NCBI GenBank assembly: GCA_009692065.1
Contig: SHZY01000001.1
Span: 34,610-98,609 of the forward strand
Origin: Gemmataceae bacterium
GTDB taxonomy: Bacteria > Planctomycetota > Planctomycetia > Gemmatales > Gemmataceae
Direction of reading: 5' to 3'
DNA length: 64,000 bases
How positions within the stretch are numbered: the stretch's first letter is position 1; the number at the start of each line of letters is the position of its first letter. Below are positions 1,396-20,270 of this stretch, piece after piece. Under the pieces are notes generated by a model that was not told the origin of the DNA, did no database searches, and saw only the letters and a program-made list of their open reading frames with translations. The translations under genes and the position numbers were made by a program.

Positions 1396-3921
1396 ATGAC
1401 CACCCCAATGATGCAGCAATACCGCGATGCGAAAGCGAAGCATCCCGACATGCTGCTCCTTTTCCGCATGGGGGACTTCTACGAACTCTTCGAAACCGAT
1501 GCAGAGACAGCCCACAAGGTGCTCGGGCTGACGTTGACGAGCCGCGACAAGGAAATGCCGATGGCCGGCTTTCCGCATCATCAGCTCGAAAGCTATTTGC
1601 ATAAACTCTTGCGCCAGGGCTTTCGCGTCGCGGTGTGCGATCAGGTCGAGGACGCCTCGCAAGCCAAAGGCCTGGTCAAGCGTGAGGTGACGCGCGTCGT
1701 CACGCCCGGGACGATCACCGAGGACGATCTGCTCGATCCGAAGGCGAACAATCACCTCGTCGCTATTCTGCCGACGACGGCTGCCGCGCCGACCGGCCTG
1801 GCGTGGCTCGATGTTTCCACCGGCCAGTTTTACGCGATGGATGTGATGCCGGATCGGCTGCGCGAGGAGCTGGCGCGGCTCGCGCCTGCCGAATGCATCG
1901 GCCCGGAAACGCAAGCGAACGCTCTGAGCGGAATTTTACAGCGGCTCGCAACGGTCCCCGCCCTGTCAGCGCGGCCGGACTGGACGTTTGATCCCAAAAC
2001 CGCGAAAGAGGCACTCGGCAAGCATTTCGCGGTTTCCACGTTTGCTGGGTTCGGATTCGACGATGCGCAAGCCTGCCTGGCCGCCGCCGGGGCGCTCTTG
2101 CTGTATGTCCAAGAGATGCTGAAGACCGACGTGCGGCACATTCGCCGCCTGGTCCCGTATTTCAGCAACCAGGTGCTGCAACTCGACGACGTGACGCGCC
2201 GCAGCCTCGAATTGACGCGCACGCTGCGCGAAGGCGAACGCCACGGCTCTCTGCTCGCCGCCATCGATCGCACCGTGACGACGATGGGCGCAAGGCTTTT
2301 GCAGCAATGGCTACTCGCTCCGCTGGCGCAGCGAGAGCAAATTGAAGCGCGGCTCGATGGCGTCACCGAATTACTGGAACAGGCCCCTCTGCGCGATGAC
2401 TTGCGGCAAGCGCTGAACGAAGTGAACGACCTGCAACGACTCACCTCGCGCGCCAGCACCGGCCGCGCGCTGCCGCGCGATCTTGCCGCCATCGGGCGCA
2501 CCCTGCGTTTTCTGCCGACGATCAAGGCGAAGATCGCCGCGCGCAAGTCGGCCATGCTGCGCGATCTCGAAGCGAATCTCGAGTTATGCCAGGATTTGCG
2601 GGCCACGCTCGATGCGGCGATTGTCGATGATCCGCCGCTCTCGGCCAAGGAAGGCGGCCTGATCAAGCCCGGCTATGCCCGCGACCTCGACGAACTGCGT
2701 GACATCGCCAAAGGGGGCAAGGAGTGGATCACACGCTTCCAGGCCTCCGAGATCACACGCACCGGCATCAATTCGCTCAAAGTCGGCTTCAACCAGGTCT
2801 TCGGCTACTACATCGAAATCACTCACGTTCACACCGCCAAGGTGCCGGCTGATTACCAGCGCAAGCAGACCTTGAAGAATGCCGAGCGCTACATCACGCC
2901 GGAGTTGAAGGAGTACGAGGAGAAAGTCCTCTCCGCGGAGGAGAAAAGCCAGGCACGCGAATACGAGATCTTTCTCGGCCTGCGCGATCAGGTCGCGGCG
3001 CAGACCCATCGGCTTCTGCAAACCGGCGAGGTTCTCGCGCAACTCGATGTGCTGGCGGCGCTCGCCGATCTCGCCGTCTCGCGCCAATACGTGCGGCCAA
3101 GCTTGAGCGATGAGCCGATCCTTTTGATCAAGGAAGGCCGGCATCCGGTGCTCGATCAGACGTTGCCGCCCGGCACGTTTGTGCCCAACGATGCGCTCCT
3201 CGGTAACGACGACGGCATGTTCCTTCTGATCACGGGGCCGAACATGTCAGGCAAAAGCACCTACATCCGGCAGGTCGCTCTCTTGGTGCTGCTGGCCCAG
3301 ATCGGCAGCTATGTGCCTGCCAAGAGCGCCGCGATCGGCATCGTCGATCGCATCTTCACCCGCGTCGGCGCCAGCGATGAACTGAGCCGCGGGCAGAGCA
3401 CCTTCATGGTCGAGATGACCGAGGCGGCCAACATCCTCAACAACGCCTCGCGCATGAGCCTGGTGATTCTCGACGAGATCGGCCGCGGCACCTCCACTTA
3501 TGATGGCGTGTCGCTGGCGTGGGCGATCACCGAGTATCTGCACAATCAGATCGGTTGCCGATCGCTGTTCGCGACCCACTATCACGAGCTGGCCCAGCTC
3601 GCCGAGACGTTGCCAAACTTGCGCAACTGCAACGTGCTGGTGCGCGAATGGCAGGAGGACATCGTCTTTCTGCACAAGATCGCGCCGGGCAGCGCCGACA
3701 AAAGCTACGGCATCCACGTCGCCCGGCTCGCAGGCATTCCAGGCGAGGTGCTCGATCGCGCAAGCCAGGTGTTGCAACAATTGGAATCGCACCATCTCGA
3801 TGAGGAGTTGCCGAAGCCGCGACTAAAGCGAACGAAGAAGGTGATCCGCGAGGTGATGCCGATGTTGTTTGAAATGGAGGAAAATGCGTCCACGAAGGAC
3901 ACGAAGAGCACAAAGGGCTAA
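1396..3921 (+). CDS. mutS: DNA mismatch repair protein MutS
   Basis: Motifs 'MMQQYRDAKAKHPDMLLLFRMGDFYELF', Walker A 'TGPNMSGKSTYIRQVALLVLLAQIGSYVPA', 'DEIGRGTSTYDGVSLAWA', 'FATHYHEL'. M6 of the ORF (1396) preferred, because the 1381 ATG abuts the repeat. Confidence 0.98.
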   Translation: MTTPMMQQYRDAKAKHPDMLLLFRMGDFYELFETDAETAHKVLGLTLTSRDKEMPMAGFPHHQLESYLHKLLRQGFRVAVCDQVEDASQAKGLVKREVTRVVTPGTITEDDLLDPKANNHLVAILPTTAAAPTGLAWLDVSTGQFYAMDVMPDRLREELARLAPAECIGPETQANALSGILQRLATVPALSARPDWTFDPKTAKEALGKHFAVSTFAGFGFDDAQACLAAAGALLLYVQEMLKTDVRHIRRLVPYFSNQVLQLDDVTRRSLELTRTLREGERHGSLLAAIDRTVTTMGARLLQQWLLAPLAQREQIEARLDGVTELLEQAPLRDDLRQALNEVNDLQRLTSRASTGRALPRDLAAIGRTLRFLPTIKAKIAARKSAMLRDLEANLELCQDLRATLDAAIVDDPPLSAKEGGLIKPGYARDLDELRDIAKGGKEWITRFQASEITRTGINSLKVGFNQVFGYYIEITHVHTAKVPADYQRKQTLKNAERYITPELKEYEEKVLSAEEKSQAREYEIFLGLRDQVAAQTHRLLQTGEVLAQLDVLAALADLAVSRQYVRPSLSDEPILLIKEGRHPVLDQTLPPGTFVPNDALLGNDDGMFLLITGPNMSGKSTYIRQVALLVLLAQIGSYVPAKSAAIGIVDRIFTRVGASDELSRGQSTFMVEMTEAANILNNASRMSLVILDEIGRGTSTYDGVSLAWAITEYLHNQIGCRSLFATHYHELAQLAETLPNLRNCNVLVREWQEDIVFLHKIAPGSADKSYGIHVARLAGIPGEVLDRASQVLQQLESHHLDEELPKPRLKRTKKVIREVMPMLFEMEENASTKDTKSTKG

Positions 3922-3993: not shown

Positions 3994-6388
3994 AATCGAC
4001 TTTCTTCTCTTTTTCCTTGGGCGCCGGCGGATCATCGGGCCGGAACTTGATCAGGTCGGCGCCGGTCTTGGCGGCGGTGGTCCGGCTGAACATGCCGATC
4101 GCGATTACGAGTTGGTTGTGAAAGGGCTGCCCCGGGGCGGCGATCTGGTGGGCCTGGCGCAAATCGTCCTGCAGCTTCTTGCCGACGGTGACGCCGTTCT
4201 TCTGCATGTGCCGATTGAGTTCCTGCAAGGCCGGCTCGCGCAGCTTGATGTCGCGTGCGGGGTCGCCGGCGATGCCCGCCAGTTTGTTTTGAATCGTATT
4301 GACGGAGAGTCTGCTGCTGCCAGGCAGTCGGCCGAGGATCTTGATCGCCGTCGTCGCATTCTTCTCGTTGGATTTCAGTTGTTCGAGAATCACATCAAAA
4401 GCCGGCGCGATGTCGTAGCCCTGGAGATCGCCCTGGCTGATGCTCCAGAAGGTGTCCAGCGCGGTCTTGGCAAAGAGCATTCGCTCGTCCGGCGTCAATT
4501 TCGCCAGCTGAACGTTCTTGACGTGCGTTGCCGCCAAACTTTTGAATTCGTCATCGGCCTTGAATTTGTCCTCGGTGATAACGATGGCATTCGGGTTGGA
4601 CGCAATCATCTGCTTGACGACTTTCTCGCGGGCCTTATCAACTACCACGATCATCGGCAAACCACCGAGATCAAAGTGCTGCCGAAGCTGGCCGTACACG
4701 TGCGGGAAGTCGGCATTGGCCATGCCCTTGTGCAGGATGATCAGATCGAAATCAGCGCTGGCCGTGCCCTTCTTGACGGCCTCTTGCACCTTGCTGGCGA
4801 GAACAGGTTCGAAGCCGAGGGCGCCGACCGTTTTCCGTATCGCCTGCTCGTCGCCGAGTGGGGCGTGGACGACGAGCGATTTTGACGTTGCCTCGCTCGC
4901 CAGGAATCGGCGGGACAGTTCGACGATGCGTTCCGCCTCCACCGCGGGCCTCGTGGTCGGGGGCATTCTTAGCATCGCCTTCATGGCCGCGAACTGCACG
5001 CGGCGATCTGGATAGTAGAGCGCCTTGACGATGCCACGCGGCTGACCGCTCGGATTGAGCCGAGCGGCGCGGAATTCAGCGCGCTCCCCCAGTGCCATAA
5101 TCAACGGCAGAATGACCGGAAGCTGCCGGTCTTCCATGCCGCGCTCCAGGACACGAAGGGCGAGGTCGGCGTCGAGCGAGGTCAGGAGCTGGTGCATCCT
5201 GGGAGAAATCGCTTCGGTCAGAATTTGATCGACCTTGGGCCGATAGTGCCGATCCAGCATCAAGCTCAAGAATACGACCTGAGCGGGTTGATAGGCTGGA
5301 TCGAGATCGAGCGCCTCGCGCGCGTAGCGCATGCCGAAGAACTCCTCGGCACGTGAAGGCGAAAGGCCGGTTGGGGCGAGCGCCAGGGCTTCGCCGTTCC
5401 ACTCCCAGACCAGCACGTCCTTGTCCTCCTTGAACTTCACATTGTGCTGGTAATAGCGCTCAGCCTCGTAGGTAAGCGTCTCCTTGGACGGCGGCAACTC
5501 GTCAATCGGAAGGCGCAGGAGCGACGCCAGCACTTCCTTGGCACGGTCGCGCACGCCGGCAGGATATTGCTTGGCCGCCGACATGTGCCACAGGTACGGG
5601 ATCACCCGCTTGTCGTCCCGCTGGCGGAAGATCTCCAGAAGCGTTAAACGCAATTCGATGTCGCGATAGTCCTTCTCGTTGACGGCCTTGAAGACTTCCA
5701 GGTAAACCGACACCGTCTCCGGACCCATGCGCAGCAAGGTCTCACGCACGCGCCCATGGAGCGGCTTGCCGAAACTCTTCCGCAGCTCCTCGATCAGATA
5801 AGGAACCGCCCGTTCGCGCGAACGCGCAATTTGGACATAGGCATAACCGCGCTCTTCCGGCGTCGGGGCGTCGAGCCGGGCGATGTATTTCTTGATCCGG
5901 TCGGGGTCGCTGAGGTGCTTTTCGACGGCCTTGGTGACGCGGTCGATCAGTCCTTCGACGTTCGCCAACGCTTCGGTTCGAAACGGCGGATGATCCGACC
6001 AATCGATCGGCTTCACGAGCCTGAGCCGCAGAAACGCCGACATGCCCTCGGCCTGTTCGAACTTGACGAGGTCCTTGTCGATCTCGTCGGCCGCATCGGT
6101 CTTGATGGCGGGGTCGTTGCCCAGCATGCGTTTGAGGTGCAGAGCTGCCAGATCGAATTTTCCGAGTTCCATTTCGAACTTGATGGCGGACCAGTACTCG
6201 ATGGTCTTCTCCGGCCTCTTGAAGAAGACGCGGTATTCCTCGTTGGCCTTGTCGAGCAGTTCGATGGTTTTCTTTTTGGTGAGGATGGCCTGCTTGTCTT
6301 TTTCGTCGTCCTGGCCGCGCGCGGGGGCTTGGGCGCGGAACGCGATGACGATCGAGACGAACGCGAAAAACCAGCGAGAAGAATTCAT
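3992..6388 (-). CDS. Exported hypothetical protein, probably HEAT-like/alpha-solenoid repeats
   Basis: Long ORF; M14 gives a signal peptide 'MNSSRWFFAFVSIVIAFRAQAPARG'; repeated helical segments. Confidence 0.75.
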   Translation of the reverse strand: MNSSRWFFAFVSIVIAFRAQAPARGQDDEKDKQAILTKKKTIELLDKANEEYRVFFKRPEKTIEYWSAIKFEMELGKFDLAALHLKRMLGNDPAIKTDAADEIDKDLVKFEQAEGMSAFLRLRLVKPIDWSDHPPFRTEALANVEGLIDRVTKAVEKHLSDPDRIKKYIARLDAPTPEERGYAYVQIARSRERAVPYLIEELRKSFGKPLHGRVRETLLRMGPETVSVYLEVFKAVNEKDYRDIELRLTLLEIFRQRDDKRVIPYLWHMSAAKQYPAGVRDRAKEVLASLLRLPIDELPPSKETLTYEAERYYQHNVKFKEDKDVLVWEWNGEALALAPTGLSPSRAEEFFGMRYAREALDLDPAYQPAQVVFLSLMLDRHYRPKVDQILTEAISPRMHQLLTSLDADLALRVLERGMEDRQLPVILPLIMALGERAEFRAARLNPSGQPRGIVKALYYPDRRVQFAAMKAMLRMPPTTRPAVEAERIVELSRRFLASEATSKSLVVHAPLGDEQAIRKTVGALGFEPVLASKVQEAVKKGTASADFDLIILHKGMANADFPHVYGQLRQHFDLGGLPMIVVVDKAREKVVKQMIASNPNAIVITEDKFKADDEFKSLAATHVKNVQLAKLTPDERMLFAKTALDTFWSISQGDLQGYDIAPAFDVILEQLKSNEKNATTAIKILGRLPGSSRLSVNTIQNKLAGIAGDPARDIKLREPALQELNRHMQKNGVTVGKKLQDDLRQAHQIAAPGQPFHNQLVIAIGMFSRTTAAKTGADLIKFRPDDPPAPKEKEKKVD

Positions 6389-6420
6389 CGGTGTTGTCAC
6401 CTCGGCGAACGGCCAAACGA

Positions 6421-7701
6421 TCAACATTCCAACTCCGGCCGAATCAAATCGTCAAACGTTTCGCGGCGGCGGATCAGGTGATGTTCGCCGCCATCGACCA
6501 GCACCTCGGCGGCGCGGGGCCGGCCGTTGTAGTTCGATGCCATCGCCATGCCGTAGGCGCCGGCGCTGAAGGTCGCCAGTAACTCGCCGCGTGTCATCGG
6601 CGGCAGGTAGCGGTCCTTCGCCAGGAAATCGCCCGATTCACACACCGGGCCGACGACATCGCACTTCTTTGTCCCCGGATTTTCGATCTGAAAATCCTCC
6701 GGCGGCGCAAAGTTCTGTGCAGGCGCGACCGGCCAGATGCGGTGGAACGAATCGTACAAGGTCGGGCGGATCAGATCGTTCATCGCCGCATCCTGGATGA
6801 CGAAATGCTTGCCGCCGGAGTCCTTGGTGTAGATCACGCGACTGACGAGGAGCCCCGCATTGCCGACGATGAAACGGCCCGGTTCCAGAACGATCCGACA
6901 GCCCGATTCCTGGATGGCCGGCACGATCACCTCGGCAAAGGCGCTGGCCGGCAAGGCTTCATTCTTCTTGTAATGGATGCCGAACCCGCCGCCCATATTC
7001 CAGACGGTGATCTGGTGCCCCTGCCGCCGCAACTTGTCGATCAGCACCAGCCCCTTCACCATGCCCTGGCGATACGGCTCGACCGTGATGATCGGCGACC
7101 CCAGGTGCATATGCAATCCTACCACCTTGATGTGCGGATTCTTGAGCACATTTTGGGCGAATTCGAGGACCGTATCGATATCGAGCCCGAACTTGACGCC
7201 TTTGACGCTGGTATCGGTCTTGGCGTGCGTCTTGGGGGGCAAATCGGGGTTCACCCGCAGGGCGACGTTCGCTACCCGGCCCATCGATTTCGCAATCTCG
7301 GCGATGGCCGACAGCTCGCCTTCGCTTTCGACGTTGAAGAGAAAAACGTTGTGCTCAAGGGCGGTGCGAATCTCGGCGTCGGTCTTGCCGGCGCCGGCAA
7401 AAACGATCTTGTCGGCCGAGCAACCTGCCTTGAGCGCGCGAAACAGTTCGCCGCCGCTGGTCACGTCGCAACCCGCGCCCCCCTCGACCATGAGGCGGGC
7501 GATGTGCAAGTTGCCGTTCGTCTTGATGCTGTAGCAGACGAGCGGGTCGACGGCCTTGAACGCCGTCTGAATCGCCTTGAGGTGATGAACGAGCGTCTTG
7601 CGGCTATAGACGTAGAGCGGCGTGCCGTATTTCTCGGCGAGCACCGGCACGGGGACCTCGTCGCAGTGGAGGACGCGGTTGCGGTAGGTGAAGTGGTCCA
7701 T
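6421..7701 (-). CDS. lysA: Diaminopimelate decarboxylase
   Basis: 'YGTPLYVYSRKTL', 'CYSIKTNGNLHIARLM', 'GLHMHLGSPI', 'GGGFGIHY', 'EPGRFIVGNAG', 'CESGDFLAKDR', 'GAYGMAMASNYNGRPRAAEVLV'. Confidence 0.96.
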   Translation of the reverse strand: MDHFTYRNRVLHCDEVPVPVLAEKYGTPLYVYSRKTLVHHLKAIQTAFKAVDPLVCYSIKTNGNLHIARLMVEGGAGCDVTSGGELFRALKAGCSADKIVFAGAGKTDAEIRTALEHNVFLFNVESEGELSAIAEIAKSMGRVANVALRVNPDLPPKTHAKTDTSVKGVKFGLDIDTVLEFAQNVLKNPHIKVVGLHMHLGSPIITVEPYRQGMVKGLVLIDKLRRQGHQITVWNMGGGFGIHYKKNEALPASAFAEVIVPAIQESGCRIVLEPGRFIVGNAGLLVSRVIYTKDSGGKHFVIQDAAMNDLIRPTLYDSFHRIWPVAPAQNFAPPEDFQIENPGTKKCDVVGPVCESGDFLAKDRYLPPMTRGELLATFSAGAYGMAMASNYNGRPRAAEVLVDGGEHHLIRRRETFDDLIRPELEC

Positions 7702-9973: not shown

Positions 9974-10075
9974 GCAATTTTCGTTTGACGATGCCCCCGT
10001 GGTTTGCGAGAACAACCCTACCCTGCCGGCTTTCGTGCTTGCCACTTTGGGCGTCACTCTTCCATGGTTGCCCCT

Positions 10076-10975
10076 ATGTCCCAGCTTGAAATACAACATC
10101 AACAGGCCGTACAAATCTTCCGCACGATGCAGGATCGTATCTGCGCAGGCCTGGCCGCAACGGACGGCAAGAGCACTTTCCGCGAAGACTCGTGGCAGCG
10201 CCCGGGCGGCGGTGGGGGACGGAGCCGCGTTCTGACCAATGGCGGCGCCTTCGAGAAAGCGGGCGTCAACTTCTCCGAAGTCTTCGGGCAGATGTCACCC
10301 GAGTTCGCGGCGCAACTCCCCGGCCAAGGCCTCGACTTCACCGCAACTGGCGTTTCGCTCGTTTTGCATCCCCTCAATCCGAAGGTGCCGACGGTACACG
10401 CCAATTTCCGTTATCTAACCAAAGGGGACAAATCCTGGTTCGGCGGCGGCGCCGATTTGACGCCGTACTATCCTTATCGCGAGGATGTGATCCACTTCCA
10501 CAAAACCTGGAAGGCGGTTTGCGCTCGTCATCCTGCCCCGGTCGATTACGCAAAATTCAAGAAATGGTGCGACGAGTACTTCTTCCTGGCCCATCGCCAA
10601 GAGCCACGCGGCGTCGGCGGTATCTTCTTCGATTATCTCGAAGGCGATTTCGCGGCACTCTGCAAATTCGTGAACGACTGCGGCAATTCGTTCCTGGATG
10701 CCTATGTGCCCATCGTGCGCCGGCGCAACGATGAACCGTACACCGAGGCGGAGCGATTCTTCCAGGAGTTCCGCCGCGGCCGCTATGTCGAGTTCAACCT
10801 GATCTACGATCGTGGCACGATCTTCGGCCTGAAAACGGGTGGGCGAACCGAATCGATCCTGATGTCGCTGCCGCCGGTGGTGCGCTGGCTGTACGATTAC
10901 CAGCCGACGCCCGGATCGCGCGAGGCGGAGTTGTATGACGTGTATTTGAAGCCTCGCGATTGGGCAGACGAGTAA
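10076..10975 (+). CDS. hemF: Oxygen-dependent coproporphyrinogen III oxidase
   Basis: '[14 protein letters not shown]', '[22 protein letters not shown]', '[14 protein letters not shown]', '[11 protein letters not shown]', '[34 protein letters not shown]'. Start set at MSQLEIQ (M25 of the ORF). Confidence 0.97.
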
Positions 10976-11047: not shown

Positions 11048-11788
11048 ATGTCTACGCCACGCAAAGTCGCTCTTGTCACGGGATCCGCCACCGGCATCGG
11101 CCGCGCCGCCGCCATTCGCTTCGCAAAAGAAGGCTTGGCGGTGGCCGTCAATTTTTCGCGATCGGAGAAGGAAGCCCGCGAAACGCTCGCTGCGGTGCAG
11201 AAACTTGGAGTTCCGGCTATACTGTCCAAGGCGAACGTCGCTGACGAAGCCGCCGTCAACGCCATGGTGGCAACGTGCGTCAAGGAACTGGGCGGGTTGG
11301 ACGTGCTGGTCAACAACGCCGGCACGACGCGGTTCATCGAGCACACCAATCTCGATGCGCTGACCAGCGAGGTCTGGGATGAGATCTTTGGCGTCAACCT
11401 CAAGGGAACGTTCTTTTGCAGCCGGGCGGCGCTGCCTCACCTGAAAAAGTCGGGCGGCTCGATCGTCAATGTGACTTCGGTGGCCGGTTTGCAAGGCATC
11501 GGCAGCTCGATCCCGTATGCGGCCAGCAAAGCGGCGATCAACTGCATGACGAAATCGCTGGCCCGCGCCTTCGGCCCATCGGTGCGTGTGAACGCTGTCG
11601 CCCCAGGCCCGGTGCTGACTCGCTGGCTGGCGGATCACATGGAACGCGTCACGGAGTCGTTGTCAGGCACGCCGATGGGACGGGCGGCCACTCCAGAAGA
11701 TATCGCGGACGCCGTGCTTTTCCTGGCGCTCGGAACGAATCTGATGACCGGGCAGATCGTGGTGGTGGATGGCGGGCGGACGATGTGA
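11048..11788 (+). CDS. SDR family oxidoreductase (FabG-like)
   Basis: 'ALVTGSATGIGRAAA', 'LVNNAG', 'YAASKAAIN', C-terminal 'GQIVVVDGGRTM'. Confidence 0.94.
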   Translation: MSTPRKVALVTGSATGIGRAAAIRFAKEGLAVAVNFSRSEKEARETLAAVQKLGVPAILSKANVADEAAVNAMVATCVKELGGLDVLVNNAGTTRFIEHTNLDALTSEVWDEIFGVNLKGTFFCSRAALPHLKKSGGSIVNVTSVAGLQGIGSSIPYAASKAAINCMTKSLARAFGPSVRVNAVAPGPVLTRWLADHMERVTESLSGTPMGRAATPEDIADAVLFLALGTNLMTGQIVVVDGGRTM

Positions 11789-12369: not shown

Positions 12370-12855
12370 ATGCGTTTTCACCTGATTGATCGAATCCTGG
12401 AACTGGACCCAGGCAAACGGATTCGGATGGTGAAAAACCTGACCCTCGCTGAAGAGTATCTGGCGGACCACTTTCCGACGTTCCCGGTCATGCCGGGCGT
12501 CTTGATGCTGCAAACCCTTGTCGAAGGATCGGCGTGGTTGTTACGCGCCACTGAGGACTTTCAGCACAGCGTCATTGTGCTGCGCGACGCGCGTAACGTG
12601 AAGTACGGCAACTTCATGCAGCCGGGCCATAGTATGACCATCACGGTGGAAACGGCCGATTATTCGCCGTCGAATCCCGCCGCGGTGTTCAAAGGCAAGG
12701 CGGAAATGGCGGGAAGCTCCACCGTTTCGGCCAAATTCACGGTGACTCGCTATAATCTCCGTGACCGCAATCCCGCCCTGCGGGAGATCGACGAAAGAAT
12801 TATCGCCCAGCAACGCAGCCATTACCGGATTCTGCGCGGCGAATTGGATCAGTAA
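12370..12855 (+). CDS. Hotdog-fold 3-hydroxyacyl-ACP dehydratase-like protein (FabZ-like; catalytic Glu position is Gln)
   Basis: 'LADHFPTFPVMPGVLMLQTLVEGSAWLL' aligns with FabZ 'GHFPxxPxxPGVLxxEAxAQ'. Confidence 0.85.
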   Translation: MRFHLIDRILELDPGKRIRMVKNLTLAEEYLADHFPTFPVMPGVLMLQTLVEGSAWLLRATEDFQHSVIVLRDARNVKYGNFMQPGHSMTITVETADYSPSNPAAVFKGKAEMAGSSTVSAKFTVTRYNLRDRNPALREIDERIIAQQRSHYRILRGELDQ

Positions 12856-12932
12856 TGACCTGCTTGCGGCTTAGCGCTCACGCAATGCCTTGCGAGCGCT
12901 AAGCCGCAAGCGGCAAACCAGGACCACCCGAT

Positions 12933-13691
12933 ATGCGGCTGAAGGACCAAGTGGCACTCGTAACGGGCGGCAGCCGAGGGATCGGCCGCGGCATCGTCAA
13001 GGCGTTTGCCGCCGAAGGGGCCAAGGTCGCGTTCATCTACAAAGGCAGCCAGCAGGCAGCTGAAAGCCTCGCGGTGGAAATTTCCGCAGCTGGCGGCCTC
13101 GCCAAAGCCTGGCAAGGCGATGTGGCCAACCACGATGAGGCGATGAAAATCGTCGAATTGGTCGAAGCGGAGTGGGGTTCGATCCAGATTCTGGTGAATA
13201 ACGCCGGCGTCATCCGCGACGGACTCTTCGTCGCCATGAAGCCAGAAGAGTGGAACGTCGTGCTCCAGACCAATCTGGGCGGCACGTTTAACTTCTGCCA
13301 CGCACTGGCGATGAAGCTGGCCCGGCAGCGCAAGGGACGGATCATTAATATTTCGAGCGTGGCCGCAGAGCACACGAACCCTGGTCAAACGAATTACGCC
13401 GCCAGCAAAGGGGCCATCAATTCGTTCACGCGAGCCTTGGCTGTCGAATTGGCAGGCCGCGGTGTGACGGTGAACGCCATCGCTCCCGGCTTCATTGAGA
13501 CAGACATGAGCGAGAACGTCCGCAACAAGGCGGGAGACCTGATCAAGAAGATGATCCCGCTCAAACGGCTGGGCCAACCGAACGACATCGCCAAAGCTGC
13601 GGTGTTTCTGGCTAGTGCTGACGCGGCGTACATCACCGGCCAGGTCATCACGGTGGACGGCGGCCTGAGTCTCGGCGCGGTGGCGGTGTAG
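12933..13691 (+). CDS. fabG: 3-oxoacyl-ACP reductase, FabG-like SDR
   Basis: 'VALVTGGSRGIGRGI', 'ILVNNAGVIRDGLF', 'NYAASKGAINSFTRALAVELAGRGVTVNAIAPGFIETDM', 'GQVITVDGGLSL'. Confidence 0.93.
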   Translation: MRLKDQVALVTGGSRGIGRGIVKAFAAEGAKVAFIYKGSQQAAESLAVEISAAGGLAKAWQGDVANHDEAMKIVELVEAEWGSIQILVNNAGVIRDGLFVAMKPEEWNVVLQTNLGGTFNFCHALAMKLARQRKGRIINISSVAAEHTNPGQTNYAASKGAINSFTRALAVELAGRGVTVNAIAPGFIETDMSENVRNKAGDLIKKMIPLKRLGQPNDIAKAAVFLASADAAYITGQVITVDGGLSLGAVAV

Positions 13692-13776
13692 TGCATTAGG
13701 TAAAACCTGCGGCAATGCCCGCTGTTATTCGATAACCCAATGATGTAACCTTTTTCTTAATGTGGAGGTCGTGACC

Positions 13777-14166
13777 ATGCCTAGCCAGGAAGAAATCTAC
13801 CAAAAGGTGTCCGCCACCCTTGTCGAAGCGCTGAACGTCGAACAGGAAGAAATCAGCCCCACCGCGACGCTGCAAGGCGATCTCGGCGCGGAGTCGATCG
13901 ACTTCCTCGATATCGTCTTCCGCCTCGAACGCGAGTTCGCCATCAAGATTCCACGCAACGAGCTATTCCCGGAATCGATCTTCCAGGGCGACCCGGATTT
14001 TGTTCTGAACGGCAAAGTCACCCAGAAGGGCCTCGATGAACTGCGTGAAAAGATGCCGTTCGCCGATCTCAGCAAGTTCGAGCAAAACCCTGAACTGACG
14101 GCCTTGAGCGATTTGTTCACGGTGCAGATGATCGCGAAGTACATCCAGCGCAAGTTGAGCGCGTAG
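13777..14166 (+). CDS. Acyl carrier protein (C-terminally extended, about 129 aa)
   Basis: 'TATLQGDLGAESIDFLDIVFRLEREFAIKIPRNELFPE' with the phosphopantetheine Ser in 'GAESID'. Confidence 0.92.
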   Translation: MPSQEEIYQKVSATLVEALNVEQEEISPTATLQGDLGAESIDFLDIVFRLEREFAIKIPRNELFPESIFQGDPDFVLNGKVTQKGLDELREKMPFADLSKFEQNPELTALSDLFTVQMIAKYIQRKLSA

Positions 14167-14221
14167 TAACGACACGCCCCGAGGCGAGCATAGCGAGCCT
14201 CGGGGATCCCAGGACCTCGAC

Positions 14222-14737
14222 ATGCGTTGGATCTGGATCGACCGGTTCGTGAAGTTCGAGCGCCAAAAGTCGGCGCGAGCGGTCAAGAACCTCAGCCTGG
14301 CCGAAGACTACTTCGAGCAGCATCTGCCTGGCTATCCGATCATGCCGGCCTGCTTCATCCTCGAAGGGCTCGCGCAGACCGGCGGCATCCTTGTCGGCGA
14401 AGCGAACGACTTCAAGGAAAAGGTGGTCCTCGCCAAGATCACGTCCGCACGTTTCGCGCGCGAGGCGGTAGCAGGCGAAACGCTGATCTACGATGTCGAG
14501 ATGGTGACCTATCGTCCCGAAGGGGCCTCAATCGTCGGCAAAGTGTTCGCCCTGCCCTCTGGGACCGTTGCCATGGAGCCCGTAGGGGCGCCGATCGCGG
14601 AGGCGGAAATCTTCTTCGCTCATTTGGATCAAGCGCGATCTCAGCAACTCTTCGGCGACCATAACTTCGTCTTCTCGGGCGAACTGAAGCACTTGCTGGG
14701 GCTGGCCAAGGTTGTGGCCCAAAGCACGGATCGCTAG
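14222..14737 (+). CDS. Hotdog-fold 3-hydroxyacyl-ACP dehydratase (FabZ-like, His and Glu retained)
   Basis: 'FEQHLPGYPIMPACFILEGLAQTGGILVGEANDFKEKVVLAKITSARFAREAVAGETL'. Confidence 0.9.
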   Translation: MRWIWIDRFVKFERQKSARAVKNLSLAEDYFEQHLPGYPIMPACFILEGLAQTGGILVGEANDFKEKVVLAKITSARFAREAVAGETLIYDVEMVTYRPEGASIVGKVFALPSGTVAMEPVGAPIAEAEIFFAHLDQARSQQLFGDHNFVFSGELKHLLGLAKVVAQSTDR

Positions 14738-14740
14738 CAA

Positions 14741-14799
14741 TTAGCCGGACGCGCCAGCGACGGATCCCGCAAGAGACCGTCGCTGGCGCGTCCGGCTAA
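14741..14799. repeat. Inverted repeat, family A
   Basis: Arms 14741-14763 'ttagccggacgcgccagcgacgg' and 14777-14799 'ccgtcgctggcgcgtccggctaa'. Confidence 0.93.
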
Positions 14800-14832
14800 C
14801 CTGCAATCTCGAAACTTGTTGTCGGGTGCGCC

Positions 14833-16104
14833 ATGCCTCTCGCCAATCGTCGCGTCGTATTCACAGGTATCGGCGTCGTCACCTCTATCGGCATGGATGC
14901 GGCGGCGTTCTGGGACGGCCTGGCGCGCGAACAATGCGGCATCAAGACCATTCAAGCCTTCGACCCCGCTCCTCTCAAGACTCGCTTCGCCGGCGAAATC
15001 GTCGGTTTTGATGCCAAGGGTTACCTCTCGAAAGAAGGCCGAAAAAGCCTGCGCGTGATGGCGCGCTCGGTGCAGATGGCCGTGGCCGCCGCTCAGCTGG
15101 CGCTCGATGATGGCAAGGTCGATAAAGCCAAGCTTGACCCGACGCGATTTGGGGTCGAGTTCGGAGCGGGGCTGATCCCGTCGGAGCTCACCGAACTTGG
15201 CCTGGCGTCACACATCTGCACCGAGGAAAACGCCCACGCTGAGGACCTGAAAATCTGGGGCGCAAAGGGTATTCCCAACATCCCCCCGCTGTGGATGCTC
15301 AAGTACCTGCCCAACATGCTCGCCTGCCACGTCTCGATCTTGCACAATGCTCAAGGGCCGAATAACAGCATCACCCAGAGCGAAGTCGGCAGCTTGCTGG
15401 CGCTTGCCGAGGCCAACCGCATCCTCCGCCGCGATCAAAGCGACTTCTTCCTCGTCGGCGGCGCCGACAGCAAGCTCAACCCTCTAAGCATGACACGCCA
15501 GGAGATCTTCGGCCAGCTGTCGAAGGAAAACGACACGCCCTCGCAAGCCCTCAAGCCCTTCGACCTGCGCCGCAACGGGACGGCGATCGGCGAAGGCGGA
15601 GCTGTGCTGGTCGTTGAAGACCTGACGCATGCTCAGAACCGCAGGGCGACGATCTACGGCGAAATGGTCGGGTTCGGCTCGACCTTCGATCGCGGCACGA
15701 CCGGGCGAGGTTTGGCCCGCGCCATCCGTGTCGCCCTGGACCAGGCGCAAATCAAACCGAGCGAGGTGGACCACGTCAATGCTCACGGCCTGAGCTCCGT
15801 AAAGCTCGACGCCTTCGAGGCACGTGGCATCAACGAAGTCTTCGGCACGTCCGTCCCAGTGTGGGCGCTCAAACCGAATATCGGCACGCTCGGCGCCGGC
15901 AGCGGCACCACAGAACTGGCCGCCAGCCTGCTCGCCATGAAGCACGGCGTTTTGCCGCCCACCCTGAACTTCGCCACGCCCGATCCGGCCTGCCCGGTGC
16001 AGATCCTTACCAAGGCGAGCCCGATTACCAAGCCGTACTTCGTGAAGATCGGCTACACCGACATGGGGCAGTGCGCGGCGGTTGTGTGTCGCAAGTGGGA
16101 ATAG
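14833..16104 (+). CDS. Beta-ketoacyl synthase paralogue lacking the active-site Cys (KS-beta/chain-length-factor-like)
   Basis: FabF-like overall ('VVFTGIGVVTSIG', 'FDLRRNGTAIGEGGAVLVVED', 'VNAHGLSS'), but 'GPNNSITQSEVGS' replaces 'GPxxxxxTACASS' (Cys->Glu184) and 'KPNIGTLGAGSG' replaces 'KSMLGHLIAAAG' (His->Thr). Confidence 0.9.
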   Translation: MPLANRRVVFTGIGVVTSIGMDAAAFWDGLAREQCGIKTIQAFDPAPLKTRFAGEIVGFDAKGYLSKEGRKSLRVMARSVQMAVAAAQLALDDGKVDKAKLDPTRFGVEFGAGLIPSELTELGLASHICTEENAHAEDLKIWGAKGIPNIPPLWMLKYLPNMLACHVSILHNAQGPNNSITQSEVGSLLALAEANRILRRDQSDFFLVGGADSKLNPLSMTRQEIFGQLSKENDTPSQALKPFDLRRNGTAIGEGGAVLVVEDLTHAQNRRATIYGEMVGFGSTFDRGTTGRGLARAIRVALDQAQIKPSEVDHVNAHGLSSVKLDAFEARGINEVFGTSVPVWALKPNIGTLGAGSGTTELAASLLAMKHGVLPPTLNFATPDPACPVQILTKASPITKPYFVKIGYTDMGQCAAVVCRKWE

Positions 16105-16105
16105 T

Positions 16106-16145
16106 TCGTTTAGCGCCCGCGCGACACCGGGCGAGCGCTAAACGA
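16106..16145. repeat. Inverted repeat, family B ('TCGTTTAGCGCCCGC...GGGCGAGCGCTAAACGA')
   Basis: Complementary arms between CDSs; copies at 27717 and 44815. Confidence 0.88.
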
Positions 16146-16174
16146 AGAGAAGATTATCCTCGGGGATTCGCGTC

Positions 16175-17467
16175 ATGAGAAGACGTGTCGTCATCACCGG
16201 AATGGGCGCTGTCACGCCACTGGGGCACAGCGTCAAGGAGCTGTACGAGAATCAACTCGCGGGCAAGAGCGGCGTCGATTTCATCAAGAACTTTGATGCC
16301 AGCACGTTCCCAACGAAGTTCGCAGCGGAGCTGAAAGATTTTGACCTGGCCCGTTTTGTGACCGACCCGAGCCGCTGGAAGTATGCCGGCCCGAACGCAC
16401 GCTTCGCCGCCGCGGCCGCCGTCCAGGCACTGCGCGACGGCAACCTGCTCGACGGCGCGAAAGTCGATCGGACACGGTTTGGCGTCTACCTCGGTTCAGG
16501 CGAAGGGGTGCAGGACTTTCCCGGTATGACGCGGCACATCTCCGCCGCCTTCAAAAAAGAAAACTACTCCGTTAACAGCGAGATCTTCATCAAGCTCGGC
16601 ACCGCGCATTATGATCCACTTACCGAATACGAACAAGAGATGCATACCACGCCGGGTCATCTGGCCGAGCATTTCGATCTGGAAGGTCCCAACTACAACT
16701 GCCTGACCGCGTGCGCCGCCAGCAGCCAGGCGATCGGCGAGGCGCTCGAATTGATCCGCGTCGGCGACGCCGATCTCATGGTCTCCGGCGGGTCCCACAG
16801 CATGATCCACCCGTTCGGCGTTACTGGGTTCAACCTGTTGACCGCGCTCTCGACGAATAATTCAGATCCCAAAAAGGCATCGCGGCCGTTCGACGCCACG
16901 CGCGAGGGCTTCGTCATCGGCGAAGGCGCGGGCATGCTGATTCTCGAAGAACTCGAGCACGCCAAGAATCGCGGCGCCCGCATCTACGCGGAGCTGACCG
17001 GCTACGGCTCCACCGCCGACGCGTTCCGCCTGACCGACAGCCACCCCGAAGGCCGCGGCGCCATCGCCTGCATCCAAGGCGCCCTCAAGGACTCCGGATT
17101 GCCGGGCGACGCCATCGGCTACATCAACGCCCACGGCACCAGCACCCAGGTCAACGACCGTGTGGAATCGCTCGCCATTAAGCAGGTGTTTGGCCCACAG
17201 GCTTACAAGATTCCCGTTTCCAGTACAAAAAGCATGCTTGGGCATCTGATCGCCGCCGCCGGAGCCGTGGAGCTGATCACGTCGATCATGACGATTCAGC
17301 GCGGCGTCATCCCGCCCACGATCAACTACGAAAACGCAGACCCCGATTGCGATCTCGATTACGTGCCCAACGTGGCCCGCGAGAAGAAAGTAGATAACGT
17401 CATCAGCAACAGCTTCGGCTTCGGCGGGCAGAACGTTTCGCTGATTGTAAGCCGATATCGCGGGTAA
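16175..17467 (+). CDS. Beta-ketoacyl-ACP synthase II-like ketosynthase (catalytically complete)
   Basis: 'GPNYNCLTACAASSQAIGEA' (Cys), 'INAHGTSTQVND' (His), 'STKSMLGHLIAAAGAVEL' (Lys, His), 'NSFGFGGQNVSLI'. Confidence 0.95.
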   Translation: MRRRVVITGMGAVTPLGHSVKELYENQLAGKSGVDFIKNFDASTFPTKFAAELKDFDLARFVTDPSRWKYAGPNARFAAAAAVQALRDGNLLDGAKVDRTRFGVYLGSGEGVQDFPGMTRHISAAFKKENYSVNSEIFIKLGTAHYDPLTEYEQEMHTTPGHLAEHFDLEGPNYNCLTACAASSQAIGEALELIRVGDADLMVSGGSHSMIHPFGVTGFNLLTALSTNNSDPKKASRPFDATREGFVIGEGAGMLILEELEHAKNRGARIYAELTGYGSTADAFRLTDSHPEGRGAIACIQGALKDSGLPGDAIGYINAHGTSTQVNDRVESLAIKQVFGPQAYKIPVSSTKSMLGHLIAAAGAVELITSIMTIQRGVIPPTINYENADPDCDLDYVPNVAREKKVDNVISNSFGFGGQNVSLIVSRYRG

Positions 17468-17549
17468 GGGCTTGCCGTTTAGCGTTCGCATGGCGCAACT
17501 CGAGCGCGAAGCCGCAAGCGGCGTAACCGACTAGACATGGAGCATCCGA

Positions 17550-18572
17550 GTGGAGTGGTACTGGATCTGCCTGGGCATTCTGATCGCGATTGCGGTAATC
17601 CCGCCGCTCGTGATGCATCTCTACATCAGGCGCACCTACGTGCCGGTCGTGGTGCGTATCTTCCAGGAAAAGCCGCTCTTCATCATGCCGTTTGGGCAGC
17701 CAGTAGCCGATGCGGAAGAAGTCGCCTTGATGACGCCGGACGGGCTGACTCTGCACGGCTGCTATCTGCGAGCGACCCAGCCGCGCAAGGGGGTGCTTCT
17801 CTTCGGCCTGGAGTTCGGCTCCAATCGCTGGGCATGCTTGCCGTATTGCGAATTCTTGCGGGCAGTCGGGTACGACATCTTCACGTTCGAGATGCGTGGC
17901 CAGGGAGAAAGCCCAGCGCAGACGGGCTATGAACCGTTGCAGTGGGTCACCGATTTCGAGGTGATCGATTTTCAGACGGCGGTCGCCTATTTGAAAACGC
18001 GGGCGGATCGCGATCCGCGCGGCATCGGCTTCTTCGGGCTCAGCAAAGGGGGCAGCGCCGGACTGATGGTCGCGGCCCAGGATCCGTATATCCGCTGCTG
18101 CGTTGTCGATGGCATTTTTGCCTCGCTGACGACGACGGTCCCGTACATGCGCAGATTTGTGCAGATCTACTCGCGAGTCCCCTGGCTGGCGAAACATTTC
18201 CCGTACTGGTACCTGCGCATCGTCGGCAACATGGGCCTGCGCAAGATCGAAAAGCTCCGGGATTGCCATTACCCGCTCCTTGAGCGATCCATGCCCAAGC
18301 TGTCGCCCAGGCCACTACTCATGATTCACGGCGGCGGGGATATCTACATCACGCCGGAGATGGCCAAGTCGCTCTTCGCGCTCGCGCAGCAGCCGAAGGA
18401 GCTTTGGCTTGTCGAGAAAGCCAAGCACAATCAGTCGCTTCACCTCGCCGGCGACGAGTACAAGAAACGCGTGCAGGAGTTTTTCGACAAGAATCTTGCG
18501 GGCCTCCCCAGCCCGGCCTCGAATGGCGCGCCGCAGCCTGGAGCAACTCAGACGGAACCGTCCTCGAGGTGA
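17550..18572 (+). CDS. Alpha/beta hydrolase, membrane-anchored
   Basis: N-terminal TM 'WYWICLGILIAIAVIPPLVMHLYI', nucleophile region 'GFFGLSKGGSAGLMVAA', 'PRPLLMIHGGGDIYI', 'KHNQSLH'. Confidence 0.87.
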   Translation: MEWYWICLGILIAIAVIPPLVMHLYIRRTYVPVVVRIFQEKPLFIMPFGQPVADAEEVALMTPDGLTLHGCYLRATQPRKGVLLFGLEFGSNRWACLPYCEFLRAVGYDIFTFEMRGQGESPAQTGYEPLQWVTDFEVIDFQTAVAYLKTRADRDPRGIGFFGLSKGGSAGLMVAAQDPYIRCCVVDGIFASLTTTVPYMRRFVQIYSRVPWLAKHFPYWYLRIVGNMGLRKIEKLRDCHYPLLERSMPKLSPRPLLMIHGGGDIYITPEMAKSLFALAQQPKELWLVEKAKHNQSLHLAGDEYKKRVQEFFDKNLAGLPSPASNGAPQPGATQTEPSSR

Positions 18573-18578
18573 CGTCTC

Positions 18579-20270
18579 ATGCTCCAATGGCTATTGCGCA
18601 ACGTCGTCCTGAAGCTGGTCGCCATTCCCATCCGGCGCCGGCTGCTGGCCTTCGAGGAGGCCACCAAGAACCCGCAGAAATTCCAAGAGGAATTGCTGCG
18701 CCGCATTCTCACTCACCAGGCCCCAACCGCCTTCGGCATCGACCATCACTTCGCGAAGTCGCCAACCCTTGAGGAATTCCGCAAGATCGTTCCCGTGGGC
18801 GGCTACGACTACATCGAGCCCTATATTCAGCGCGTGCTCAAGGGCGAGACCCTCGCGCTCCTGGCCGACCCGAAGATCCACATGTTCGCCATGACCAGCG
18901 GCACCACGGCGACGCGCAAGTACATCCCCGTCACCGACCACTATCTGGCCGACTACAAACGAGGCTGGAACATCTGGGGCCTCAAGGTCTATCGGGATCA
19001 TCCCGGTGTGCGCATGCGGCCGATCTTGCAGATGTCGGGCGACTGGCAAGAATTTCAGACCGAAGCGGGCATCCCGTGCGGCGCCGTCACCGGTTTGACA
19101 GCCCAGATGCAGATGCGCATCGTCCGCTGGCTGTACTGCGTGCCGGCGATCGTCGGCAAGGTCAAGGATCCCGCCGCCAAGTACTATCTCGCGCTCAGGC
19201 TGAGTGTGCCACGCAAAGTGGGGATGATCATTGCCGCCAATCCGAGCACGCTTGTGAACCTGGCCCGCGCGGGCGATCAGGAAAAGGAATCGCTGATCCG
19301 CGACATTCACGATGGGACGCTGTCGAGCCGCTTCGAGTTGCCCGCCGAGGTGCGCGCCGCCGTAGCCGGACGCATCGCCAAGCGCCGCCCCGACCGGGCC
19401 CGCGACCTCGAGAACATCGTCAGCCGGACGGGCACGCTCTACCCCAAGGACTACTGGCCGTCGGAATGCGTCATCGGCAACTGGATGGGGGGCTCGGTCG
19501 GCGCGTATCTCCGCCATTTCCCGAAATACTACGGCGCGACGCCGGTGCGCGACGTCGGCCTGATCGCCAGCGAAGGACGCATGACCATCCCACGCGAAGA
19601 TGGCACCCCCAGCGGTGTGCTTGACATCACCACGCACGTCTTCGAATTTATCCCCGAGGAAGAAGGCGACAGCAAGAACCCGACAGTGCTGGCCGCGCAT
19701 GAATTGAAGGAAGGCCGCACGTATTACATCCTCCTGACGACTTCCTACGGCCTTTACCGCTACAACATTTTCGACGTGGTGCGCTGCACCGGCTTTTTCA
19801 ACAACACGCCGCTCGTGGAGTTCCTGAGCAAGGGTGCCCACTTCGCCAACATCACGGGCGAAAAAGTGTCGGAGCATCAGATCAACGCCGCGATGGCCAG
19901 CGTATTGCGCGATCTCAACCTCAACCTGACAGCGTATAGCGTCGCCCCGGTCTGGGACGACGAGATGCCCTACTATGGCCTGTTCGTCGAACGCACCGAC
20001 CTGGCGAGCCGGGAGCAAGGCGTCCAGCTTGTGCGCCTGCTCGAAGACCGGCTCGGCGGCATCAACATCGAATACGCCGCCAAGCGCGAGAGCCGCCGGC
20101 TTGGCCCGATGCGTTTATGCCTGCTGGCGGCCCATAGCTGGCAGGCATGGGATCGCCAGCGCCTGGCACGCACCGGCGGCACCCTGGAGCAATACAAGCA
20201 CCCGTGCCTGATCGCCGACCCGAAGTTCCGCGACAGCATCACGGTCGAGGAGGAAATCACCCCGATCTAG
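18579..20270 (+). CDS. GH3 auxin-responsive promoter-family protein (acyl-adenylate-forming amide synthetase-like)
   Basis: 'FAMTSGTTATRKYIPVTDHYL', 'ILLTTSYGLYRYNIFDVVRCTGFFNNTPLVEFLSKGAHFANITGEKVSEHQI', 'LARTGGTLEQYKHPCLIADPKF'. Confidence 0.92.
   Translation: MLQWLLRNVVLKLVAIPIRRRLLAFEEATKNPQKFQEELLRRILTHQAPTAFGIDHHFAKSPTLEEFRKIVPVGGYDYIEPYIQRVLKGETLALLADPKIHMFAMTSGTTATRKYIPVTDHYLADYKRGWNIWGLKVYRDHPGVRMRPILQMSGDWQEFQTEAGIPCGAVTGLTAQMQMRIVRWLYCVPAIVGKVKDPAAKYYLALRLSVPRKVGMIIAANPSTLVNLARAGDQEKESLIRDIHDGTLSSRFELPAEVRAAVAGRIAKRRPDRARDLENIVSRTGTLYPKDYWPSECVIGNWMGGSVGAYLRHFPKYYGATPVRDVGLIASEGRMTIPREDGTPSGVLDITTHVFEFIPEEEGDSKNPTVLAAHELKEGRTYYILLTTSYGLYRYNIFDVVRCTGFFNNTPLVEFLSKGAHFANITGEKVSEHQINAAMASVLRDLNLNLTAYSVAPVWDDEMPYYGLFVERTDLASREQGVQLVRLLEDRLGGINIEYAAKRESRRLGPMRLCLLAAHSWQAWDRQRLARTGGTLEQYKHPCLIADPKFRDSITVEEEITPI

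Follow-up and report, generated by a model that had tools for sequence, protein, structure and literature searches.

An eight-gene locus (positions 12370-20270) was analysed in a 64,000-nucleotide stretch of DNA, here called the window, from a Gemmataceae bacterium (GenBank assembly GCA_009692065.1, contig SHZY01000001.1, positions 34,610 to 98,609 of the forward strand). The source assembly is that of a planctomycete, and comprises 5.97 Mb in 255 contigs. We slightly favour the view that the locus encodes a dedicated second type II fatty acid synthase (FAS-II)-like system together with a release and amidation module. The arrangement far exceeds what chance would give: about 29 further loci carry the eight genes in the same order. 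A fuller reading is offered with reserve, as a serious possibility: the locus would make an undescribed core N-acyl envelope lipid of the Gemmataceae and Isosphaeraceae. Its chain would be built by a ketosynthase (KS) with an acidic KS paralogue and by a split-site dehydratase (DH) heterodimer, released by an α/β hydrolase, and conjugated by an enzyme of a new GH3 subfamily. As part of this fuller reading, and equally tentatively, the chain-building core would date to early Planctomycetota.

All eight genes lie on the + strand with intergenic gaps of 7-96 bp, in the order DH1, FabG, acyl carrier protein (ACP), DH2, KSb, KSa, α/β hydrolase, and GH3. DH1 (12370..12855) is a FabZ/FabA-like hotdog dehydratase subunit (PF07977, 50.3 bits), in which His34 is kept and Gln48 replaces the Glu. 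A FabG-type 3-oxoacyl-ACP reductase (12933..13691; TIGR01830, 286.6 bits; PF13561/PF00106) has conserved S142, Y155, and K159. The dedicated ACP (13762..14166; PF00550) contains the phosphopantetheine residue Ser42. DH2 (14222..14737; PF07977, 55.3 bits) is a second hotdog dehydratase subunit, with both Glu48 and His34 present. KSb (14833..16104; PF00109/PF02801) is a KS paralogue, in which Glu replaces the nucleophile Cys and the second His is lost; KSa (16175..17467; TIGR03150, 487 bits; PF00109/PF02801) is a catalytic KS with C180/H320/H357. The last two genes encode an apparently membrane-anchored α/β hydrolase (17550..18572; PF00561) and a GH3-family adenylating acyl-acid amido synthetase (18579..20270; PF03321, 242 bits; PF23571, PF23572). 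The original prediction, made from the DNA letters, had named these genes and families, and both coordinates and Pfam matches agree with it. The same is true of its extended ACP (129-134 residues versus about 78), its KS paralogue beside a canonical KS, and its membrane anchor on the hydrolase. It had described seven consecutive genes; the co-directional run stands, but the genes number eight.

Besides the window, 23 Gemmataceae loci have all eight genes in this order, as do four loci of a second Gemmatales family and two of other families; the family labels used here and below (Isosphaeraceae, Pirellulaceae-type, and Phycisphaerae-type) were taken from named matches or inferred. The identity of single proteins across these loci falls to about 38-60%. 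Gene order, for which the original prediction had called for a comparison among relatives, is thus kept through the Gemmataceae and the second Gemmatales family. The Isosphaeraceae version, as in Paludisphaera soli (L178), has seven genes and lacks FabG. One genome of another class (L156) has all of the locus genes except the hydrolase, and the quintet DH1-ACP-DH2-KSb-KSa stands by itself in further Planctomycetota classes. Among the 66 good Gemmataceae genomes (≥90% complete, ≤5% contaminated), relatives of KSb, the hydrolase, and GH3 were each present in all 66. The operon is split in some genomes. In G094 the KS core lies on contig C5, and the hydrolase and GH3 have moved as a pair to C3; in G071 and G052 the hydrolase remains with the KS core and GH3 is elsewhere. 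This pairing of the hydrolase, now with GH3 and now with the KS core, fits an enzyme acting between the two, and is a circumstantial sign that it links them.

The genome of the window also contains separate genes for primary fatty acid synthesis. Seven PF00109 matches were identified, including a FabF on contig C66 that adjoins an ACP and clusters with the E. coli FabF in the maximum-likelihood tree. The third PF07977 protein is a separate fabZ on contig C47. The locus therefore duplicates the housekeeping FAS set, and does not constitute it. The original prediction had proposed a KS/KS-beta locus that is dedicated and not primary, equipped with an ACP, ketoreductase (KR), and dehydratases of its own; these fabF, acpP, and fabZ genes elsewhere in the genome and the conserved order with GH3 bear this out. 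Another, short contig of this genome (C115, L087) has a further KS and a pyridoxal phosphate-dependent enzyme resembling 8-amino-7-oxononanoate synthase (AONS) and serine palmitoyltransferase (1543-3075 on the - strand, 5596-6951 on the + strand), which is perhaps a sphingolipid-type locus.

A phylogenetic tree of 66 KS sequences was reconstructed by maximum likelihood. KSa and KSb form separate clades (100/99 and 100/98, respectively), which are sisters to each other (100/98). Both fall apart from the E. coli FabF and the FabF of the same genome, and also from two E. coli aryl-polyene KSs, although the branches of the latter are long. The catalytic residues of KSa are highly conserved among its relatives (Cys in 120/120, each His in 119/120). 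The corresponding Cys position of KSb is acidic in 156 of 162 distinct sequences (Asp in 86, Glu in 70); the others have Cys (4), Asn (1), or Gln (1). In the quintets of one other family (f34; L311, L321), KSb retains Cys/His/His; it is a basal branch of the KSb clade, which it shares with a further intact KS from the window's genome (C7). This suggests that KSb is derived from an active KS within this type of locus.

Several relatives of the KS genes were found in other settings. KSb-KSa pairs without adjacent dehydratases or ACP occur in several Gemmataceae (L073, L077, L079, L080, L083, L084), with 46-50% identity to KSb and often alongside a full cluster in the same genome. Pirellulaceae-type loci (such as L138 and L140) contain an Asp/Glu-type KSb alone, next to which neither KSa nor DH nor ACP is encoded. 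Metagenome-assembled genomes (MAGs) labelled Omnitrophota and Auribacterota (L207, L210) have related clusters, in which KSb retains the Cys.

In FabZ and FabA, the active sites span the dimer interface: one subunit supplies the His, the other the Glu/Asp. In DH1, the His is kept in 85/85 distinct sequences, and the Glu is replaced in 29 of them. In DH2, the Glu is kept in 94/94 sequences, whereas 6 have another residue in place of the His and 5 are unaligned there. None of the 57 loci in which both dehydratases were read loses DH1-His or DH2-Glu; the replacements are related by descent, so that they represent fewer events than these counts. Given the interface active sites, this complementary decay points to one shared essential site, formed by DH1-His and DH2-Glu, and thus most simply to DH1 and DH2 working as an obligate heterodimer.

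The extended ACP has an insertion of about 45 residues ahead of the last helix, and Ser42 is conserved in 44/44 aligned sequences. The relatives start with MPT..EIY, so the start codon is probably ATG 13777 rather than GTG 13762. The AlphaFold model (predicted local distance difference test, pLDDT, 88) has a normal ACP core, and the Foldseek search identified an ACP fold, with the specialised ACP RPA2022 among the neighbours. The AcpXL family (PRK06508) was not the best match (42.5 bits versus a cut-off of 83).

The Ser165/Asp264/His293 triad of the hydrolase is conserved among its relatives. An N-terminal helix (residues 2-38) is predicted in its model (pLDDT 92) and looks like a membrane anchor. 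Foldseek neighbours include esterases and lipases, and also polyketide-related enzymes, among them GrgF and the thioesterase DcsB. The hydrolase is a probable acyl-ACP thioesterase or O-acyltransferase. In the GH3 protein, the nucleotide-binding motifs TSGTT, ASEGR, and GLYRY are invariant in 27 sequences, and the PDB matches include JAR1 and other plant GH3 enzymes.

A pathway can be proposed from these features. KSa would probably pair with KSb, the latter with Asp/Glu for Cys, as a heterodimer resembling a KS and its chain-length factor (CLF), and would set the chain length. FabG would reduce the growing chain on the extended ACP, and the DH1/DH2 heterodimer would dehydrate it there at the DH1-His and DH2-Glu site. 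The operon has no evident enoyl reductase; the chain may thus be left unsaturated or 3-hydroxylated, or be reduced by a housekeeping enzyme. The anchored hydrolase would then free the chain from the ACP as a free acid at the membrane. This role is proposed because it is the only thioesterase candidate in the operon. GH3 would adenylate the free acid with ATP and transfer the acyl group to an amine, so that an N-acyl compound results. The GH3 enzyme OlsH takes a free fatty acid (PMC12493201), and a thioesterase step would thus be needed if the GH3 of the locus behaves alike. The two heterodimers, the hydrolase role, and the amide product are what we infer from these data. Since the locus is retained in every good Gemmataceae genome, it probably makes a core lipid of the envelope. 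The original prediction of a specialised acyl-chain metabolite is disfavoured by the same family-wide universality.

Several points weigh against this pathway. The gene functions are assigned from sequence, and no gene of the locus has known chemistry. The GH3 enzyme is distant from OlsH, so that the amine, or even amidation itself, is not assured. No relationship can be recognised between the hydrolase and OlsI, which is encoded next to OlsH, and generic esterases appear besides thioesterases among the fold neighbours of the locus hydrolase. DH1 retains both catalytic residues in most sequences, and hence may also act alone. Moreover, the core quintets of Phycisphaerae-type genomes and of some other Planctomycetota have no hydrolase or GH3 nearby; the chain module therefore does not need either of them.

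Among the alternatives, the one that survives best is that GH3 adenylates a free fatty acid as a primer for the ACP, the KS pair lengthens it to a very long chain for lipid A or another envelope lipid, and the hydrolase transfers the product. The rhizobial acpXL-fabZXL-fabF2XL-fabF1XL genes, in which a dedicated ACP, a FabZ, and two tandem KSs build the very long chain of lipid A, offer a precedent (PMC11901934). The presence of RPA2022 among the fold neighbours of the ACP is also consistent with it. However, there is no LpxXL-type acyltransferase among the eight genes, and AcpXL is not the best match of the ACP. Known GH3 enzymes make amides or acyl-adenylates, and we know of no GH3 that loads an ACP. 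This alternative is thus considered unlikely.

Somewhat less likely again is an ornithine-lipid pathway with its own fatty acid supply, in which GH3 would form lyso-ornithine lipid and the hydrolase would add the second acyl chain. Ornithine-lipid synthesis by a GH3 enzyme and an α/β hydrolase was described in a planctomycete in 2025 (J Biol Chem, PMC12493201). OlsH of Singulisphaera acidiphila makes lyso-ornithine lipid from free fatty acid, ATP, and ornithine, and the two enzyme folds are adjacent in olsH-olsI as they are here (PMC12493201). Trimethylornithine lipids are made by both Gemmataceae and Isosphaeraceae (PMC7828035), and the genome of the window has no OlsH above the cut-off. OlsH (NF052613) is also the sole NCBIfam match of the GH3 protein, which prompted the comparison. 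However, the score is 93.8 bits against a cut-off of 620, and the alignment consists of fragments. Separate loci encoding a true OlsH above the cut-off occur in 50 of 95 Gemmataceae and 35 of 41 Isosphaeraceae genomes, and nearly all of these genomes also carry the GH3 of the locus. This coexistence indicates that the two are distinct paralogues. The hydrolase shows no detectable similarity to OlsI, here inferred in Isosphaeraceae from its position next to OlsH and OlsG (best BLASTP match 18 bits, E=0.44). A hidden Markov model of the cluster hydrolase found no match in eight OlsH loci. An OlsH/OlsI identity was therefore rejected on the score, the coexistence of the loci, and the unrelated hydrolase. 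The window's genome contains a second GH3 (C148, L085; 7043-8716 on the - strand) with GNAT-like proteins alongside; it was also rejected as OlsH (38.6 bits, GNAT-like flanks). In Pirellulaceae-type genomes, a GH3 with 42-49% identity occurs by itself.

It is improbable that the locus belongs to an aryl-polyene or other type II polyketide synthase (PKS) pigment pathway with a KS/CLF pair. The KS/KS-beta pair, two dehydratases, KR, and ACP would suit such a pathway, as would the absence of an enoyl reductase from the operon. The cluster of E. coli CFT073 was compared. KSa and KSb branch away from its aryl-polyene KSs, and its MMPL transporter, LolA, methyltransferase, acyl-CoA synthetase, and glycosyl/acyltransferases have no counterpart here. 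An aryl-polyene identity was rejected on these grounds. Classical CLFs have Gln in place of the KS Cys, whereas KSb has Asp/Glu. Family-wide universality would also be atypical for a pigment cluster. Membership in the aryl-polyene or classical type II PKS loci, to which the original prediction had compared the locus, is therefore not supported.

Slightly more improbable still is that the chain module and the GH3/hydrolase pair are mere neighbours with no shared product. The quintet does stand alone in several classes, as GH3 does in Pirellulaceae-type genomes; but all three parts are co-retained in the 66 good Gemmataceae genomes, and are adjacent across orders. That the locus is itself the primary fatty acid synthase, as its universality in the family and its FAS-II enzyme set might suggest, was ruled out as highly improbable by the canonical fabF-acpP and fabZ of the same genome and by an operon without fabD, fabH, or accABCD.

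The surroundings of the locus were also compared. Flanking genes that might hint at the amine or an exporter were sought around the loci, and none was generally conserved. A DUF1571 protein and a response regulator come up repeatedly, though mostly in Isosphaeraceae. The DUF1571 gene lies 3' of GH3 in Isosphaeraceae and a few Gemmatales, in about 20 loci (for example, L134:15033-16274); a role as periplasmic lipid carrier is only a guess. Upstream in the window lies a short-chain dehydrogenase/reductase (SDR) gene (11048..11788, + strand; PF13561), which neighbours the locus in only some relatives (L048, L050, L052, L072, L078), and its connection to the pathway is uncertain. The coproporphyrinogen oxidase gene hemF (10004-10975) lies further upstream, and likewise in L048, L055, L056, and L078, which represent several genera.

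Parts of this system are already known. Cys-less FabF paralogues were noted in 2009 in Kuenenia and in Rhodopirellula baltica (RB3714, RB4527), those of R. baltica with Asp or Glu (PMC2649909). Together with kuste3606, kuste3348, and kuste2805 of Kuenenia, they have been considered as ladderane candidates (PMC2649909, PMC4790861). The change from Cys to an acidic residue in KSb is thus not itself new. The whole assembly appears undescribed: no description of a GH3 with a KS/KSb module was found in the open-access literature searched, most subscription papers lying outside the search. Literature searches on planctomycete long-chain hydroxy acids and on GH3 in KS clusters yielded nothing decisive. 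Planctomycetes do figure in a published KS-CLF catalogue (PMC10132072). The original prediction that a GH3 with a KS/CLF pair may be undescribed holds for the KS/KS-beta link, but not for the operon of GH3 and hydrolase (PMC12493201).

Planctomycete envelopes are unusual and their lipids only partly known; a locus retained by every good genome of one family, and present in related classes, is a sign of a major lipid so far overlooked or never connected with its genes. The locus also allows the role of an acidic residue at the KS nucleophile position to be tested, a question raised in 2009 for the ladderane candidates, and extends the bacterial GH3 enzymes beyond ornithine lipids. Singulisphaera, of the same planctomycete group, is genetically tractable (PMC12493201).

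The locus can be compared with four known systems. The type II PKS loci likewise have a Cys-His-His KS adjoining a Cys-less paralogue and, like the aryl-polyene systems, combine a KS and a catalytically dead paralogue with ACP, KR, and DH. However, KSb has Asp/Glu where CLF has Gln (found in 1/162 KSb), and the locus has its own KS clades, no PKS tailoring genes, and a core-genome distribution. The Kuenenia cluster kuste3603-3606, compared by description, also combines a Cys-less KS paralogue with ACP, FabZ, and a normal FabF. It differs in having phytoene desaturase and radical SAM enzymes, neither of which is among the eight genes here, rather than two dehydratases with hydrolase and GH3. 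A direct ladderane link through contigs labelled 'Kuenenia' (L183, L244) was rejected; the clusters on them are similar to those of Isosphaeraceae, and the contigs seem to bear wrongly assigned MAG names. The rhizobial acpXL-fabZXL-fabF2XL-fabF1XL-adh-lpxXL cluster shares a dedicated ACP, a dehydratase, and two tandem KSs outside primary FAS. However, it has one dehydratase, an ACP of another family, and a lipid A acyltransferase where the locus has hydrolase and GH3. Finally, OlsH/OlsI of S. acidiphila shares a GH3 with conserved adenylation motifs and an α/β hydrolase in one planctomycete operon. In the locus described here, by contrast, GH3 is another paralogue, the hydrolase is unrelated in sequence, olsG is absent, and GH3 is attached to a complete KS/KSb-ACP-DH-KR module.

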